Source of the DNA: Natronorubrum daqingense
Lineage (GTDB): Archaea > Halobacteriota > Halobacteria > Halobacteriales > Natrialbaceae
DNA: 64,000 nucleotides
Assembly (NCBI RefSeq): GCF_001971705.1
Contig: NZ_CP019327.1
Span: 3,038,001-3,102,000, forward strand
Reading direction: 5' to 3'
Shown piece by piece: positions 52,423-61,090 of this stretch; the first letter of the stretch is position 1; each line of letters opens with the position of its first letter. A model generated the notes under the pieces. That model saw only the letters and a program-made list of their open reading frames with translations. It was not told the origin of the DNA and ran no database searches. The position numbers and the translations under genes are program-made.

Positions 52423-52552
52423 TAGCTCCACTTCCCACAACACTGGAACACCCGAAATATCGAGGGCGGTGGCGAACGACGTTCGACTCGAGAGCCGTGA
52501 TCGCACCCGACTTTCGCCGAATGAGTTTGGAAACATCGAACCGAACGCCTCG

Positions 52553-52571
52553 AGCTTTACTTTCGAAAGCT
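52553..52571. promoter_or_regulatory. Inverted repeat upstream of copA
   Basis: AGCTTT-N7-AAAGCT, about 68-86 bases before the CopA start in the divergent promoter region. May be an operator or leader hairpin. Confidence 0.3.
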
Positions 52572-52638
52572 GGCTCGAGAGTAATTCATGGTTTCTGAGT
52601 CACAATTCGCTTGAACGTGCACCACGTATTCCTCTCTA

Positions 52639-55320
52639 ATGAGTACGAGACGAGCGCACCTCGAGATCACCGGCATGTCCTGTTCGACGTGTTCGGGGAC
52701 CGTCGAGGACGCGGTGAGGGAGCTTGAAGGAGTCGAGTCGGCGAGCGCGAACTACGCGACCGACGAGGGGACGGTCGCGTACGATCCCGACGCGGTCTCG
52801 CTGGCCGACATTTACGACGCGATCGAGGACGCCGGCTACGAGGCCGCGTCGGTCTCCGAGTCGATTACGGTGATGGGCATGTCGTGTTCGACGTGCTCGG
52901 GGACCGTCGCGGATGCCGTTACCGACCTCCCGGGCGTGATCCGGGCCGACGTGAACTTCGCGTCGGACGAGGCCCGCGTCGAGTACAACCCGAACGACGT
53001 CTCGCTGGGCGAGATCCGCGCGGCCATCGAGGACTCGGGCTACGACCCCGTCCGCGAGGAGCGAGACGCCGACGACGAGACGCAGGGCTCGAGTCAGCGC
53101 GAACGCGCCGTCGAGAAAGAGCTTCGCCGCCAGCGCAACCTGGTCGTCGGCGGTGGTCTCCTGACGCTCGCGTTCGTCCCGATGATGGTCGAGATGCTGT
53201 TCGATCTCGCGGGGCTCACCTCGCCGATTCCGATGGCGCTCGCCCACCCGCCGGGCTGGCTCGAGTTCGTCCTCGCGACGGTGTTGATGGCTACGCTCGG
53301 CCGAGAGTTCGTCGTCGGCGCGTGGCGCGCGTTCTCCAATAATCGACGAGCGAACATGGACACGCTCGTCGCCGTCGGCACCTCGGCGGGCTACGTCTAC
53401 AGTACGGCGGTCCTCGTCGGTGCCGTTACCGGCGGACTCTACTTCGAGGCCGTCGCGTTCATCCTCTGGTTCATCACGCTCGGCAACTGGCTCGAGGTGC
53501 GCTCGAAGGCGCGGGCCGGAAACGCCCTGCGAGAGCTGCTACAGATGGAAGCCGACGAGGCGACCGTCGTGGAGGAGGGAGAAGAGCGGCAGGTGCCACT
53601 CGAGGACGTGAACCCCGGCGACGTGATGAAGGTCCGTCCGGGCGAGCGAATCCCGACTGACGGCGTGGTCGTCGACGGCCAGAGCGCGGTCGACGAGTCC
53701 ATGCTGACCGGCGAGTCCGTGCCCGTCGAGAAGGGCGAGGGCGACGAGGTCGTCGGCTCGACGATCAACGAGAACGGCGTCCTCCTCGTGGAGGCGACGA
53801 AGGTGGGCTCCGAGACGGCGATTCAGCAGATCGTCGACCGCGTCAAGGAGGCCCAGTCGCGCCAGCCCGAAATTCAGCGGCTGGTCGATCAGGTTAGCGC
53901 GTACTTCGTCCCCGCGGTGATCGTCAACGCCGCGTTCTGGGCGCTGCTCTGGTTCGTCTTCCCCGAAACGCTCTACAGCGCGTCGTCGGCGCTTGGCTCG
54001 TGGATTCCGATCCTCGAGCCCGTCGGCGGCGGCCCCGAAGTCGCCGTTCCCGGCGCTGGGGTCGGCGTGCCGGTGCTCGAGTTCTCCGTGGTCGTCCTCG
54101 CCTCGGCGTTGTTGATCGCCTGTCCCTGCGCGCTGGGGCTCGCGACGCCCGCCGCGACGATGGTCGGCTCGACGCTCTCGGCGACCAACGGCGTCCTGTT
54201 CAAGGGCGGCGACGTCCTCGAGCAGGTTCGGGGCATCGACACCGTCGTCTTCGACAAGACGGGGACGCTAACTCACGGCGAGATGGTCCTGACGGACGTC
54301 GAACTCGTGGGTGAGCGGGCGGCCCCAGATGGCGGGACGGCGGCTGACGACGATACTGCGGCCGACGGTGGTGCGCTTGCCGCGCCGGACGAACGCGATG
54401 GGGACCTCGAGTCGTACGTCTTAGGCGCGGCCGCGACGGCCGAATCCGGCTCCGAACACCCGATCGCGCGAGCGATCGTCGATGCGGCCGACGAACGCGG
54501 CGTCGCCGTCGGCGAGGTCAGCGAGTTCGAGAACGTCCCCGGTCACGGCATTCGCGCCGAGACCGACCGCGGCAGCGTGTTGGTCGGACGGCGCAAACTG
54601 CTCGAGGACGCGGGTATCGACACCGAACCCGCCGAGGAGACGCTGACGCGACTCGAGCGCGAGGGGAAGACGGCGATGCCGGTCGCAATCGACGGTCGGT
54701 TGTTGGGCGTGCTCGCGGTGGCTGACGAGGTTCGCGAGAGTGCGACCCAGACCGTCAGCGCGCTTCGAGAGCGTGGCACTGAGGTCGTGATGCTCACCGG
54801 CGACAACGAGTTGACCGCTCGAGCGGTGGCCCAGGCGGTCGGCATCGATCCCGAGAACGTCCGCGCGGAGGTGCTCCCGGAGGACAAAGCCGACCACGTC
54901 GAGGAGCTACAGGCTGGCGACGAGGGCTCGAGCGTCATGATGGTCGGCGACGGCGTCAACGACGCCCCCGCGCTCACGACGGCACAGGTCGGCGTCGCGA
55001 TCGGATCGGGAACCGACGTGGCCATCGAGTCCGCGGACGTGACCCTGATGCGTGACGATCCCGCGGACGTGTTGAAAGCCGTCCGCATTTCGGAGGCAAC
55101 GATTTCGAAGGTGCGCCAGAACCTCTTCTGGGCGTTCGCCTACAACACGACGCTGATCCCAATCGCCTCGCTCGGCCTCCTGAACCCCGCCCTCGCCGGA
55201 CTGGCGATGGCCGCCTCGAGCGTCAGCGTGATGGCTAACAGCCTCTCGTTCGCGACGTACGACCCCCACGAGGACTATCGGCTGGCCGTCTTGCGCCCGC
55301 TCGAGTGGATTCGGGGATAG
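52639..55320 (+). CDS. copA: CopA-type copper-translocating P1B-ATPase with two HMA domains
   Basis: An 893-residue Cu+ exporter. Two N-terminal HMA domains carry CxxC metal sites: Cys15/Cys18 and Cys83/Cys86, both in the string MSCSTCSGT. The core has TGES ([14 protein letters not shown]), the transport site Cys495-Pro-Cys497 ([10 protein letters not shown]), phosphorylated Asp539 ([10 protein letters not shown]), the intact His607-Pro608 ([10 protein letters not shown]) and [14 protein letters not shown]. An acidic insertion (about 35 residues, around [17 protein letters not shown]) lies just after the phosphorylation site. It is divergent from the CopB/SHOCT unit (249 bases), so copper response is likely shared. 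Start ATG 52639 begins right at the first HMA strand. Confidence 0.95.
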
Positions 55321-55380
55321 GTGATTCGAGTCGTCCCTACCAGTGGATTCTTGTCGTGACGATTCGAGGTAGGGGACAAG

Positions 55381-58300
55381 ATGAGTCAGGCGACGCTGTC
55401 AGATCGTCCGTATGCGAACTCGAATCTCTTCTCCGGGCACTATCTCGACGAGCGGATTCAGGATCGCGAGGAGTGGGACTGCGATGGGGATGCGGAGGAG
55501 GCGATGGCTGCGCTTCAATCGCTGTACGACCTCGAGTCGGGGTTAGTCGAGGGATACAAGGAAGATCCGCTGATCGACAACTGGATCGACGAGGTGCTCG
55601 ACGTGCTCGGTTTCGGGACGAACGTGGAGACGACGCTGCCCGACGGTGGGGGCTACGTCGACGTGTTGCTGTTCGACGATCCGGAGGCGCGACGGGACGC
55701 TGCAGAGGTCTATCTAAGCACCGAAGAATCGTCGGATCTGTTCGAGCGCGGGATCGGTCTCGTCGAGGCCAAACAGTGGGATGCCGACTTTTCGGCTCGA
55801 TTCAGCGAGCAGCGACCGTATCGAAACGCCTCTCACCAGATCAAACACTACCTCGAGCGGACGCCCGAGTCGATCCAGTGGGGCGTACTGACGAACGGTC
55901 GGAAGTGGCGACTCTACGGGACCAAGGATTACGAGACGCAGACGTACTACGAGGTCGACTTGCCGGAACTGCTCGAGCGTGGTGATCTCGAGGCGTTCAA
56001 ATACTTCTACCTGTTTTTCCGTCCGGCGGCGTTTCAGGCGAGTGGCGGGACGACGTTCCTCGATTCGGTCCGGTCGGAAAGCGAGACGGTCGCCCAGGAG
56101 TTAGGAGAGGACCTCCAGGATAACGTCTTCACCGCGGTGCGGGTGCTCGGACGCGGGTTCGTCGAGACGAACGACCTCGCGATCGACCCCGACGACGAGA
56201 AGAGGTTGGGGGAACTCAAAGAGCAGTCGCTCGTGCTCCTCTATCGGCTGATGTTCGTCCTCTACGCGGAATCGCGGGGCCTGATCCACCCGAAGGGACA
56301 GGATGCGGTTTCGGAGTACGAGGACAACTTCAGTCTGGACGAACTGCGTCTCGAGATTCACGAGGAGATCGGCGAGGTCGACGACGGGTTCGACACCTAC
56401 AGCGAGTACTCCACGACGATGTGGAGTCGACTCGAGGACCTGTTTCGGTTGGTCGACGAGGGCGAGGAGTCACTCGGCATTCCGCCGTACAACGGCGGGC
56501 TGTTCAACACCGAGAAACACGGGTTTCTGACGGACCACGAGGTGAGCAACCGGTACCTCGCGGAGGTCATCTATCGAATTTCGACGACCGAGAACGACGA
56601 GGGTCGGTACGTGTTGGCCGACTACGCGGATCTCGATACGCGACATCTCGGGAGCGTCTACGAAGGGTTGCTCGAGCACCAGTTTCGGATCGCGCCGGCG
56701 GACTACGCCGCGGTGACGGACGACGGCGGCGAGATTTGGAAACCGGCCACGGAGGTGTCGGTGGCGGAAGCGGTCGAAACCGTCGACGAGGGTGGGCTCT
56801 ACGTGGTCAACGACGAAGGGGAGCGAAAGGCCACGGGGGCGTACTACACGCCGGATTACGTGGTGACCTACATCGTCGAGGAGACGGTCGATCCGTTGAT
56901 CGACGAGATCCGGACGGACTTACAGGAGCAGGGCTTCGAGCCGGGAACGCACGAGTACCTCGGGGCCTTTTACCGTCGGGTGTTGGATCTCAAGGTTCTC
57001 GACCCCGCGATGGGCAGTGGCCACTTCCTCACGCGGGCGACGGAGTATCTCGCCCAGCAGGTGATGGAGGAGGTGCGCGAGATCGAGGAGGCGACGGCGT
57101 TCGACGAGCAGCGGGTTCGTCGGGACGTCGCGAAGGAGTGTATCTACGGCGTCGACCTGAACGGAATGGCGGTCGAACTCGCCAAGCTGTCGATGTGGCT
57201 CGAGACGCTCGCGGCGGATCAGCCACTGGCGTTTCTGGATCACCACCTCAAGGCGGGCAACTCGTTGGTCGGCTCGGACGTGACGGACGTGCTCTCGAGT
57301 GACACCGAATCCAACGACGGACAGTTGACCCTCCAGCAGGCGTTGGCTCGAGTTCGACAGGATACCTTAGAGCACGTCATGGAGCGGATGCAGGAGCTAC
57401 TCGAGATCGACAACGAGACGCTCGAGGACATCAAGTCGATGGAGGAGTTGTACGACGAGGTGCGCGCCGATCCGTTCTATCAGCGCCTCTTCGAGTTGAC
57501 GAACGTCCACACGGCCGAACGCTTCGATCTGGACGTGCCCGAGGGGGCTTACGAGCGCATGGCTCGAGCGATCGACGACGAGGACGAGTGGCTCGAGGTT
57601 CGAGAGGAGGGCTGGTTCAAGTCTGCGCAGGCCATGTGTACCGAGGAGGCGTTTTTCCACTGGGAGTTGGAGTATCCGGAGGTGTTCTTCGATGAAGACG
57701 GGGAGAAGCGGGAAGATGCTGGGTTTGATGTGGTGATTGGGAACCCGCCTTGGGTTTCAAACTGGGAACTGACAGAGAGTAGTGATCAGATTGTATCTAC
57801 GCTGGAATCTCTGTATCCAGAGGTGACCTCAGGACATTGGGATTTATTTGTTCCATTCTGTTACCGAGCAGCAACATTAGCAAGGACTGAAGGTCGACAT
57901 TCTTTTATCACACCAACTTCACTAGGGACTGAAAAATATGGGACGAAAATACGTAAGAAGTTCGTCGATGATTGGACAATACATCAATTAGTACACTTCG
58001 GAGAACATCAGATATTCAGTGAGGTTGATAGACAATATCTAATTTACATGCTGTCCACAGAAAACAATGAAAATTGCAAAACAAAACTGACGAAGTTTAA
58101 TGACCCGGGTTTCGCTGCTACAGCAAGGATTCCTCAGGCCAATTTCTCAGAGTATTCGAATTATTCGCTTCGTCCATCTCTAGCGACTACTGATGTCGAA
58201 CTTAAGAAGAAGGTTGACAAAGAAAGTATTCCTACTGGGCGAATTTGCTGTGTGAACGTTGGAGTAGTTGCACATGCTGCGTCCGACAGCGAACTGGATT

Positions 58301-59463
58301 TCAAGAAAGATGATGTAATCTCCCAAGATCCCCAAGATGGATATAAACAGTATGTCGAGGGAAGCAATATATCTAGATACTTGATCAACTGGGAAGGAGA
58401 ATACATTGACTATGAGTCCAAGAAAAGCCATTTCCACCGACCCAAATACTCAGAATTATTTGAGTCTGAAAAAATTGTCATCCCGAGAGTGAGTGGTGCT
58501 GATAATAGAATCGAAGCCTCTTTTGACAAGAATGGATATTACAATAATGATAATGTGACGAACGTTGTCCCTTGGACAGATAAAATCCTGGATAAACAGT
58601 CGCCGAAAAATTTTGACCCGTTAAACGATACAGAGGCGTTCAGTCTATATTCGATTTCCGGGGTACTCAATTCTAATCTCATCACGTATTATTTCTCTCA
58701 ATTCCTAGCGACGGGAACACTACAGGGGAGTTATTCCAGTATATACCCTGACGATATTCGAAAAATACCGATTCATTCCGATTTGTCAGAAGACTCTGAC
58801 TTAGTAACAGAGTTGACAAGGTCGGTTGAAAAAATAATACAATTTCGAGAAACCGAAAATTCGCTTAATCTCGCTCTGCTTGACCACCTCGGCTCTTATT
58901 CCAATGAGGTATCCGTCTCGGAAGTTGGATTCATCCAGCCAACAGAAGGAGCTGCCGACTCCATCCTCACCGACACCGCCGAAGACCGCGAAAACCTTCG
59001 CGTTGGCACTGTCGAAATCGAACGCCAATCCCCCGACTCCCTCGAGATTCACCTCACAGCCCGGTACAAACCCGAAAACGAGGACGAGTACGAAACCGAC
59101 CGCTGGGGCTACACCGAAACCGACCCCGAACCCGCCCTCGAGATTTCCGACCTCACGGAAACCGAAGCCGACCTGATCGAGGCGTTCGTCCCCGTCGCCG
59201 TCGACGAAGCCGGTGGGTTTGCGAACTTCCGTGAAACCGCGACCAAGAACGACTCGCTCGTGGATCGCCTGCGAAAGCTCACTCTCCCCGCCGTCGACGA
59301 CGTTCGAGACGGGTTGGAAAGCTATCTCAAGACGAAAGCACGGGCCGAGGAACTCGAGGCGAAGATCGAGAAAACGGACGAACTGATCGACGAGATTGTG
59401 TACGAACTGTACGGATTGACCGAGGAGGAAATCGAGATCGTCGAAGAAGCGGTTGAGAAGTAG
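55381..59463 (+). CDS. Type IIG restriction-modification enzyme (Eco57I-like, single chain)
   Basis: A 1360-residue protein uniting nuclease, methyltransferase and specificity parts. The PD-(D/E)xK nuclease is N-terminal (Asp94 in GYVDVLLFD; Glu129-Ala-Lys131 in GLVEAKQW). A helical linker follows; the adenine-N6 methylase has SAM motif I DPAMGSGHFL (541-550) and motif IV NPPW (788-791). Beyond that to about residue 1180 lies the target-recognition region, then a conserved helical end. DNA for about 57740-58930 is AT-rich (for example 19 G+C in 58021-58080) against GC-rich flanks (39 of 60 in 57541-57600), showing a swapped specificity segment. It begins 60 bases after copA on the same strand. 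It should methylate and cut at one recognition site; no separate partner is needed. Confidence 0.93.
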   Translation: MSQATLSDRPYANSNLFSGHYLDERIQDREEWDCDGDAEEAMAALQSLYDLESGLVEGYKEDPLIDNWIDEVLDVLGFGTNVETTLPDGGGYVDVLLFDDPEARRDAAEVYLSTEESSDLFERGIGLVEAKQWDADFSARFSEQRPYRNASHQIKHYLERTPESIQWGVLTNGRKWRLYGTKDYETQTYYEVDLPELLERGDLEAFKYFYLFFRPAAFQASGGTTFLDSVRSESETVAQELGEDLQDNVFTAVRVLGRGFVETNDLAIDPDDEKRLGELKEQSLVLLYRLMFVLYAESRGLIHPKGQDAVSEYEDNFSLDELRLEIHEEIGEVDDGFDTYSEYSTTMWSRLEDLFRLVDEGEESLGIPPYNGGLFNTEKHGFLTDHEVSNRYLAEVIYRISTTENDEGRYVLADYADLDTRHLGSVYEGLLEHQFRIAPADYAAVTDDGGEIWKPATEVSVAEAVETVDEGGLYVVNDEGERKATGAYYTPDYVVTYIVEETVDPLIDEIRTDLQEQGFEPGTHEYLGAFYRRVLDLKVLDPAMGSGHFLTRATEYLAQQVMEEVREIEEATAFDEQRVRRDVAKECIYGVDLNGMAVELAKLSMWLETLAADQPLAFLDHHLKAGNSLVGSDVTDVLSSDTESNDGQLTLQQALARVRQDTLEHVMERMQELLEIDNETLEDIKSMEELYDEVRADPFYQRLFELTNVHTAERFDLDVPEGAYERMARAIDDEDEWLEVREEGWFKSAQAMCTEEAFFHWELEYPEVFFDEDGEKREDAGFDVVIGNPPWVSNWELTESSDQIVSTLESLYPEVTSGHWDLFVPFCYRAATLARTEGRHSFITPTSLGTEKYGTKIRKKFVDDWTIHQLVHFGEHQIFSEVDRQYLIYMLSTENNENCKTKLTKFNDPGFAATARIPQANFSEYSNYSLRPSLATTDVELKKKVDKESIPTGRICCVNVGVVAHAASDSELDFKKDDVISQDPQDGYKQYVEGSNISRYLINWEGEYIDYESKKSHFHRPKYSELFESEKIVIPRVSGADNRIEASFDKNGYYNNDNVTNVVPWTDKILDKQSPKNFDPLNDTEAFSLYSISGVLNSNLITYYFSQFLATGTLQGSYSSIYPDDIRKIPIHSDLSEDSDLVTELTRSVEKIIQFRETENSLNLALLDHLGSYSNEVSVSEVGFIQPTEGAADSILTDTAEDRENLRVGTVEIERQSPDSLEIHLTARYKPENEDEYETDRWGYTETDPEPALEISDLTETEADLIEAFVPVAVDEAGGFANFRETATKNDSLVDRLRKLTLPAVDDVRDGLESYLKTKARAEELEAKIEKTDELIDEIVYELYGLTEEEIEIVEEAVEK

Positions 59464-59676: not shown

Positions 59677-59757
59677 ATACGGTCTGCTGTACGTCAGTAC
59701 CGGTGCAACTGCAGACGGGTCGCGGTTGCACCGGTACACAGTTACAGCAGACCGTAT
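59677..59757. repeat. 81-base imperfect palindrome
   Basis: Outer arms ATACGGTCTGCTGT (59677-59690) and ACAGCAGACCGTAT (59744-59757) pair perfectly over 14 bp; inner arms TACCGGTGCAAC (59698-59709) and GTTGCACCGGTA (59725-59736) pair over 12 bp; 7-base internal mismatched stretches and a 15-base loop separate them. It could form a long hairpin or cruciform. Confidence 0.85.
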
Positions 59758-60087: not shown

Positions 60088-60219
60088 ATGGCTTTGAACC
60101 GACGTGGTTGGAAGCCAGTCTCGGGTGGTTCCAGCACCCGGGGCGTTTCGATACCCCCGTCGGAGACGGCTTCCGTGCTAATTGTTGGACTATTGTCTCT
60201 TATATCTACCGACAAGTGA
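60088..60219 (+). CDS. Possible 43-residue leaderless ORF
   Basis: ATG 60088 stands at leaderless distance from the TATA box at 60060 and opens 43 codons ending TGA 60219. The product starts MALNRRGWKPVSGGSSTRGV and ends in a short hydrophobic stretch (VLIVGLLSLIS). No family is recognised. The alternative is a structured non-coding RNA: CCCGGGGCGTTTCGATACCC with the following CCG can fold as a hairpin. Confidence 0.3.
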   Translation: MALNRRGWKPVSGGSSTRGVSIPPSETASVLIVGLLSLISTDK

Positions 60220-60290
60220 CGGGAAATTACTGCGAATATGGGCTCGAGGCGACGCACTCGAGACTCACTCGGTTTTACAGGGAGCAAGAG

Positions 60291-60297
60291 TTTTATC
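60291..60297 (+). promoter_or_regulatory. TATA box for the vapBC-type pair
   Basis: TTTTATC lies 35-41 bases before ATG 60332, giving a predicted leader of roughly ten bases. Confidence 0.45.
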
Positions 60298-60331
60298 TGT
60301 CAACGCAGTAGTGGGTATACGGTGGTCAAAA

Positions 60332-60601
60332 ATGGGAAACACGTCAAACGAAGCAAATCGGGGCGAAACGCTCTCGCTCACGGTAGACGACCGGGGGCGG
60401 GTGACGCTCCCCAAGGAAATCAGGGAGCGACTCGGAATCGAATCGAACGACGAGATCCCCGCGACCCTCGTCGGTTCTGTACTCGAGGTTAACCCGAAAC
60501 CGAGTTCGAAGCTGGAGACGGCAACGGCAGACCGAGACGACTGGACGAACACGACTCCGGTTGATGCCGGAGAGACGCTCTTCGGGCCGATGGATCGGTG
60601 A
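60332..60601 (+). CDS. AbrB/MazE-family antitoxin (VapB type)
   Basis: An 89-residue protein. The swapped-hairpin AbrB domain spans about residues 12-55: LSLTVDDRGRVTLPKEIRER, then LGIESNDEIPATLVGSVLEV. The C-terminal tail (WTNTTPVDAGETLFGPMDR) should bind and neutralise the toxin. It presumably represses its own promoter as a dimer. Upstream in-frame ATG 60182 is rejected since the AbrB start and the TATA box fit ATG 60332. The stop abuts the PIN-domain gene, the classic antitoxin-toxin order. Confidence 0.88.
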   Translation: MGNTSNEANRGETLSLTVDDRGRVTLPKEIRERLGIESNDEIPATLVGSVLEVNPKPSSKLETATADRDDWTNTTPVDAGETLFGPMDR

Positions 60602-61090
60602 GTGGACGAGATGAACGAGTCGCTACCGACCGAAGTCACGGTTCTCACTGACGTGAACGTTCTCGCGATCGGTCTGACCGACGATCACCCGGCGCACGAC
60701 GACGTGTATCCGTGGATCCAAAACGCTCTCGACGGGCCAAACGTGTTGCTCGTGTTCGATTACTACCCGCTGCGAGCGCAGTATCTCATGACGAGTAATT
60801 TCGGCGTGGATGCAGTTGCTGCGCGAAACGCCGTTCAATCGCTCGTGAGCAGCCCTGCCCGAATCGTGAGCGCCACTGAGACGACGCTGCTCGAGGCGTA
60901 TGATATTAGCGCCGAGAAAAATCACGACGTGTACGACGCCTTTATTTTGGCTCTTGCGCGGTCGTACGACGCAGATTATTTACTCACGACCGATGGTGAT
61001 TTTGACGACCTGTGTGCTGGTGAAGACGTGACGTACGTCAACCCAATTCCGACGGAGAAGCACGAAAAACTCACACTCATCGATGGGTAG
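60602..61090 (+). CDS. PIN-domain ribonuclease toxin (VapC type)
   Basis: A 162-residue protein directly after the antitoxin. GTG 60602 immediately follows the antitoxin stop; ATG 60611 is an alternative three codons on. PIN residues are visible: Asp in LTDVNVLAIGL, a Glu in TETTLLEAYD, Asp in DVYDAFILALARSYDADYLL and the final DGDFDDL acidic cluster. It should be a Mg2+-dependent RNase attacking tRNA or rRNA when freed from VapB. Codon usage matches the surroundings, so it is not obviously recent. Confidence 0.88.
   Translation: MDEMNESLPTEVTVLTDVNVLAIGLTDDHPAHDDVYPWIQNALDGPNVLLVFDYYPLRAQYLMTSNFGVDAVAARNAVQSLVSSPARIVSATETTLLEAYDISAEKNHDVYDAFILALARSYDADYLLTTDGDFDDLCAGEDVTYVNPIPTEKHEKLTLIDG

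Follow-up and report, generated by a model that had tools for sequence, protein, structure and literature searches.

A specificity cassette exchanged within a solitary Type IIG-like restriction-modification gene of haloarchaea, with a base composition decoupled from that of the host

According to passages of PMC3983042 citing Furuta and Kobayashi 2012, recognition domains move between non-orthologous Type III methyltransferases of Helicobacter pylori at conserved methylase motifs. A related process, DoMo, is described for S subunits of Type I and Type IIG systems (PMC3077401); specificity sequences are swapped by recombination in conserved flanking DNA, and by way of repeats a sequence passes from one to the other of two positions in a separate S gene. 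Archaeal restriction-modification genes are reported as patchy and transferred in passages of PMC6471742, and passages of an archaeal survey (PMC10609329) report a PglX-like group as persistent in Haloterrigena; within-gene cassette exchange is not described in those passages of either paper. No paper on AT-rich haloarchaeal recognition cassettes was found in a search conducted mostly outside subscription journals. Recognition-domain swapping is known elsewhere; its occurrence in an archaeal Type IIG enzyme and the decoupling of composition reported here appear to be new.

The gene under study lies in the window (the whole 64,000-nt stretch of the Natronorubrum daqingense chromosome that was analysed) and adjoins a heavy-metal P-type ATPase gene. 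Its product has Pfam matches to Eco57I and N6_Mtase (reaching residues 879 and 901, respectively), MmeI_Mtase and TaqI_C, and a weak match to MmeI_N under the cut-off. As judged by motif, nuclease and methylase occupy one polypeptide; the recognition domain (TaqI_C) is in the same chain, and genome G000 gave no HsdS match, hence no separate S subunit. The nuclease appears to be maintained, since D94, E129, K131 and Q153 do not vary in the subfamily (74 of 74 members). The gene is best filed as encoding a solitary Type IIG-like enzyme. The features discussed are collected in Table 1.

Table 1 Coordinates of the features in the window. Residue numbers refer to the encoded protein; pLDDT, confidence measure of the structure model
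Feature	Position	Strand	Basis
Type IIG-like restriction-modification gene, solitary, 1360 aa	55381..59463	+	single ORF; Pfam matches
PD-(D/E)XK nuclease core: D94, E129-x-K131, Q153	55660..55839	+	subfamily conservation
Methylase motif I, DPAMGSG, residues 541-547	57001..57021	+	translation; near-invariant
Left junction zone up to the NPP of motif IV, residues 759-790	57655..57749	+	likeliest crossover zone
Replaced AT-rich cassette	57750..58938	+	no congener DNA alignment; GC segmentation; low homologue identity
Cassette part 1: methylase C-terminal lobe after motif IV, ~residues 791-935	57751..58185	+	model; N6_Mtase Pfam match to 901
Cassette part 2: TaqI_C-like specificity domain, residues 990-1131	58348..58773	+	PF12950, E 1.3e-15; fold matches
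Right junction zone, less sharp than the left one, residues 1163-1240	58867..59100	+	homologue alignments; GC3
Conserved C-terminal part, residues 1187-1360, native composition	58939..59460	+	identity; GC4; model

Like the present protein, MmeI/Type IIL and Eco57I-like Type IIG enzymes are single chains with a nuclease, a helical part, a gamma-class methylase and a recognition domain; the present protein departs from them in its sub-threshold MmeI_N match, its TaqI_C-like recognition domain and its large conserved C-terminal extension. DrmMI of DISARM is its best PADLOC profile, and one bacterial relative lies between drmD and drmA; unlike in DrmMI, the PD-(D/E)XK site is conserved here, and the bacterial relatives tested fail to align there. 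No Drm protein occurs among the PADLOC families listed (25 of 133) for 76 flanking ORFs of 18 homologues, and DrmA, DrmB and DrmD, with which DrmMI would be encoded, are absent from the window neighbours tested and from the families listed. In fold, BREX PglX/BrxX resembles the protein across the methylase, the TaqI-like recognition domain and the C-terminal extension. PglX is without a nuclease domain (PMC11341690) and acts with other BREX proteins, whereas the present gene is solitary, carries a nuclease motif, has no DISARM or BREX neighbour among the window ORFs tested and scores 89 bits against the PglX model, far below the cut-off of 500.

Base composition changes abruptly within the gene. 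The GC content is 61.1% at 55381-57740, 41.0% at 57741-58930 and 58.7% at 58931-59463, and GC at four-fold sites (GC4) is 0.85, 0.40 and 0.80 in the same three parts, placing the drop at synonymous sites. In a segmentation fit (log-likelihood gain 68.6) the AT-rich stretch begins at 57750 (range 57711-57786) and finishes at 58871-58934 (range 58859-58952). GC over 1188 nt falls as low as 0.408 in the gene, whereas 200 codon shuffles never went below 0.506, and beyond the gene the lowest such value in the 64 kb is 0.545, so that no comparable stretch occurs. The earlier note, made from the letters of this DNA, had placed a break at motif IV with recovery near residue 1180, in agreement with both GC and segmentation; its base counts (19 of 60 at 58021-58080, 39 of 60 at 57541-57600) are exact, and two of the codons it singled out are indeed much commoner inside the segment (per 1000 codons: AAT, 1 to 43; AAA, 8 to 38), as is ATA (0 to 20).

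Evidence for replacement comes from loss of homology, not from composition. At the locus L057 of a congener, colinear with the window over 49.6-64 kb (~14 kb), DNA identity is 93.7% over 52499-57749, no alignment is found over 57750-58938, and identity is 93.1% from 58939. Against 23 homologues the cassette is roughly 5-40% identical per block, and the expectation of high identity outside and none inside is borne out for nearly all homologues. In the 18 closest, residues 788-790 are invariant and identity collapses at 791-793, returning at ~1183-1187; DNA alignments stop in most cases at 57749 or 57755, within or just past the codons of motif IV (NPPW, 57742-57753). The right side is less sharp: homology restarts anywhere in 58859-59110, varying by homologue, and GC3 climbs gradually. 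Synonymous GC falls family-wide from ~residue 771-782, slightly ahead of the end of homology. Together, these comparisons strongly support the proposal of the earlier note that the internal segment is a cassette replaced by recombination, and equally strongly support the retention of native sequence in the nuclease (as the note also held), in that half of the methylase which contains motif I, and in the C-terminal part. An in-frame TAA interrupts the congener copy at its right junction, and this copy is probably inactive.

The same pattern recurs at a second chromosomal slot, beside methylaspartate-pathway genes, common to eight other genomes (the comparison set holds one genome per species). 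These carry at least seven unrelated cassettes between flanks 79-97% identical; cassettes are unrelated or distant in every slot pair compared, L068/L069 excepted, and in most slot comparisons the alignment ends at the NPP codons. In L059/L069 the flanks are 97% and 96% identical, the backbone 94% and the cassette 38%; L067/L071 are 94% identical until the NPP codons, then without alignment, then 92-95% identical. Conserved flanks around an unrelated segment are seen at the same locus in different genomes.

In a structure model of residues 466-1360 (mean pLDDT 75.8, pTM 0.58), the ~400-residue cassette takes in the methylase lobe that follows motif IV, a recognition domain of TaqI-like fold and a connecting helix. 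The first part of the cassette is modelled as strands and helices (pLDDT mostly 72-92), the C-terminal part as a beta sheet and long helix; the latter has a GC4 of 0.80 and is 67-93% identical in most close orthologues. The nearest solved structures by fold are CamA, BrxX/PglX, M.BseCI and M.TaqI. Because the modelled lobe and the recognition domain both lie within the cassette, one swap exchanges half of the methylase catalytic domain along with the recognition domain. That the segment coincides with the target-recognition region is therefore right as far as the TaqI_C match is concerned, and too narrow in that the segment also starts within the methylase catalytic domain.

The low GC of the segment could be read as the signature of one AT-rich donor organism, from which the segment was imported once and recently, as the earlier note had proposed, and in the window gene the breaks of composition and homology do coincide. 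This is improbable, and the family largely refutes it. Among full-length homologues gathered across the haloarchaeal class (117, later 137), cassette GC4 is below that of the backbone in 134 of 137 (overall 0.45 vs about 0.8); in the close subfamily (n = 78) it is 0.44 (sd 0.08) vs 0.84, and lower in 78 of 78. AT-richness of all family members, which the note itself had named as evidence against a donor, is essentially what is found. Cassette GC4 does not track backbone or host GC4 (r 0.09-0.14), whereas C-terminal GC4 follows it (r 0.70-0.72), in statistics that take the genes as independent although they are related. The best matches of 114 of the 117 cassettes fall in the haloarchaeal class, the nearest being in GC-rich hosts, and haloarchaeal cassettes are acidic, in line with halophile proteins (net charge -6 per 100 residues, vs about +1 to -2 in most relatives outside the class); a non-halophile donor was rejected on this charge and these matches. 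A viral source was rejected as well: viral contigs gave no relative of the cassette, and phage records contain distant homologues only. As cassette AT-richness is near family-wide, low GC neither dates the swap in the window gene nor reveals its source. By these comparisons AT-richness is a property of the cassette pool and no mark of one recent import.

Two relatives (L042/L067 and L036+L055) have the cassette of the window gene, at 50-90% identity per 40-residue block, and insertion sequences interrupt the cassette in both: an IS66-like element with an 8-bp duplication (TCCTGAAG) in one, a different element at a contig break in the other. A donor of the window gene's cassette was not found, the nearest cassettes beyond these two relatives being 42-44% identical.

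Divergence in place, through diversifying selection and relaxed codon use with no replacement at all, is still less probable. Recognition domains evolve fast, and haloarchaeal HsdS specificity subunits are AT-rich too (22 genes, GC4 0.23-0.66); extreme divergence could mimic replacement, yet it would not place one cassette on two backbones. Cassettes 55-86% identical sit on backbones less alike, as in L121/L178 (cassette 75%, backbone 50%), L156/L173 (65%, 46%) and L187/L189 (86%, 69%), and shared cassettes occur on backbones only 44-50% identical. Between two subfamilies with backbones at most 60% identical, 35 pairs share cassettes at 50% or more, up to 75%, so that one segment is found on different backbones. 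Such divergence would, moreover, have to leave flanks at 97% DNA identity around the 38% cassette of L059/L069 and stop DNA alignments at one codon in most homologues. Conversely, among the 498 pairs of the 137 homologues with backbones at least 80% identical, a cassette is shared at 70% identity in just 9, and 72 cassette types are distinguished among 117 genes at 50% identity. In trees of 51 rows, picked to include shared cassettes and so illustrative without estimating frequency, the subfamily split takes one change on the backbone tree and 20 on the cassette tree, where the AU test rejects a single clade (p 8e-38). No pair sharing half a cassette without the other half was found, and independent exchange of the two halves was rejected for that reason; on these alignments the cassette is inherited as one unit.

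Programmed switching, in which a site-specific recombinase or silent cassettes would shuffle the segment within one genome, is the least credible reading, since the nearly constant left breakpoint at motif IV and the free-standing C-terminal fragments of several genomes that might suggest it are outweighed by the lack of a second closely related cassette in the own genome, of a recombinase among the neighbouring window ORFs tested and of extra conservation in the junction codons. At invariant junction residues, codon homozygosity does not on the whole exceed that of the backbone, and a site-specific anchor at the left junction was rejected on that account; silent cassettes of the own genome were rejected likewise. 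The C-terminal fragments (L268-L272, in genomes G139, G176, G147, G069 and G171), some with a partial cassette, are possibly remnants or cassette stores.

Very probably, then, the enzyme consists of a fixed frame and a cassette that is swapped as a unit by recombination. The frame comprises the N-terminal PD-(D/E)XK nuclease, the helical part, methylase motif I and the conserved C-terminal domain; the exchanged unit runs from just past motif IV through the TaqI_C-like specificity domain to its connecting helix. The pathway is most likely gene conversion or homologous recombination of the ordinary kind, acting in conserved sequence on both sides of the cassette, with genes at one locus in different strains, and sometimes paralogous subfamilies, as partners. 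Ordinary recombination would be enough because gene conversion in Haloferax is efficient, with kilobase tracts, and also occurs between genes of different species (PMC8223754). Each exchange would leave nuclease and cofactor functions in place. A simultaneous change of the methylated and the cut DNA site, as the earlier note proposed, is a reasonable expectation given the way single-chain enzymes operate; the benefit would presumably be defence.

Compared with the H. pylori Type III case, which concerns bacterial methyltransferases, the present system is an archaeal single chain with its own nuclease, its exchanged unit is larger, taking in half of the methylase domain as well as TaqI_C, and the composition of its cassette is decoupled from the host. 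As in DoMo, exchange would use conserved flanking DNA; unlike in DoMo, a single position inside the restriction-modification polypeptide is involved, no anchor repeats were detected, and the own genome gave no second closely related cassette that could act as a silent copy in phase-variable shuffling. The comparisons show an archaeal single-chain restriction enzyme family diversifying through cassette exchange across genera, and the natural fusion point just past motif IV may be usable by enzyme engineers.

The origin of the AT-richness is less clear. In most of the pairs inspected with cassettes 59-86% identical on unlike backbones, both cassettes are AT-rich, which indicates that the composition outlasts circulation among GC-rich hosts. 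GC-rich relatives outside the class show the drop too (GC4 of backbone and cassette: 0.77 and 0.39, 0.88 and 0.43, 0.84 and 0.41, with a smaller difference in 0.89 and 0.73); in the five GC-rich bacterial relatives examined it is far less pronounced. A few cassettes are GC-rich (L078, L273, L079, L292), so the protein does not demand AT-richness. Possible causes are escape from a GC-raising process, selection, or continuing supply from an unsampled AT-rich pool. We tentatively suggest, as one possibility that we hold at somewhat less than even, a long-lived pool of cassettes (haloarchaeal, some methanogen-like) that keeps its own AT-rich composition apart from its GC-rich hosts, either because rare homologous partners let it evade a GC-raising process acting on recombining DNA or because AT-richness is favoured. 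To our knowledge, GC-biased conversion is not established in haloarchaea. The Haloferax study found no clear GC dependence of conversion (PMC8223754). Residence time was rejected as a cause: shared cassettes on close backbones are not significantly GC-richer (0.49 vs 0.44, p 0.19), although the paralogue pair L078/L273, in which the cassette was kept, is GC-rich. As to partner availability, cassette GC4 rises weakly with the identity of the nearest cassette (rank correlation 0.35, uncorrected for relatedness).

Were the pool to exist as suggested, one gene would carry both composition states side by side. In genome after genome, flanks that track host GC and a cassette that does not share one reading frame, a natural experiment that could part host-wide pressures of mutation and selection from recombination-linked ones, an old question on GC content.

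Some minor observations were made in passing. The paralogue pair L078/L273, on a smaller replicon of the same two congeners, is the opposite of the window gene: its cassettes are 91% and its backbones 92% identical, with cassette GC4 of 0.88 and 0.80. A MazE/AbrB-type and PIN-domain gene pair at 60182-61090 of the window is likely a VapBC toxin-antitoxin module. A strong palindromic hairpin (59677-59757; DNA fold z -7.3) lies just 3' of the gene, in a stretch without alignment to the congener; it is one of about seven or eight dispersed genome copies, 73-100% identical, and resembles a small repeat of mobile or REP-like type.
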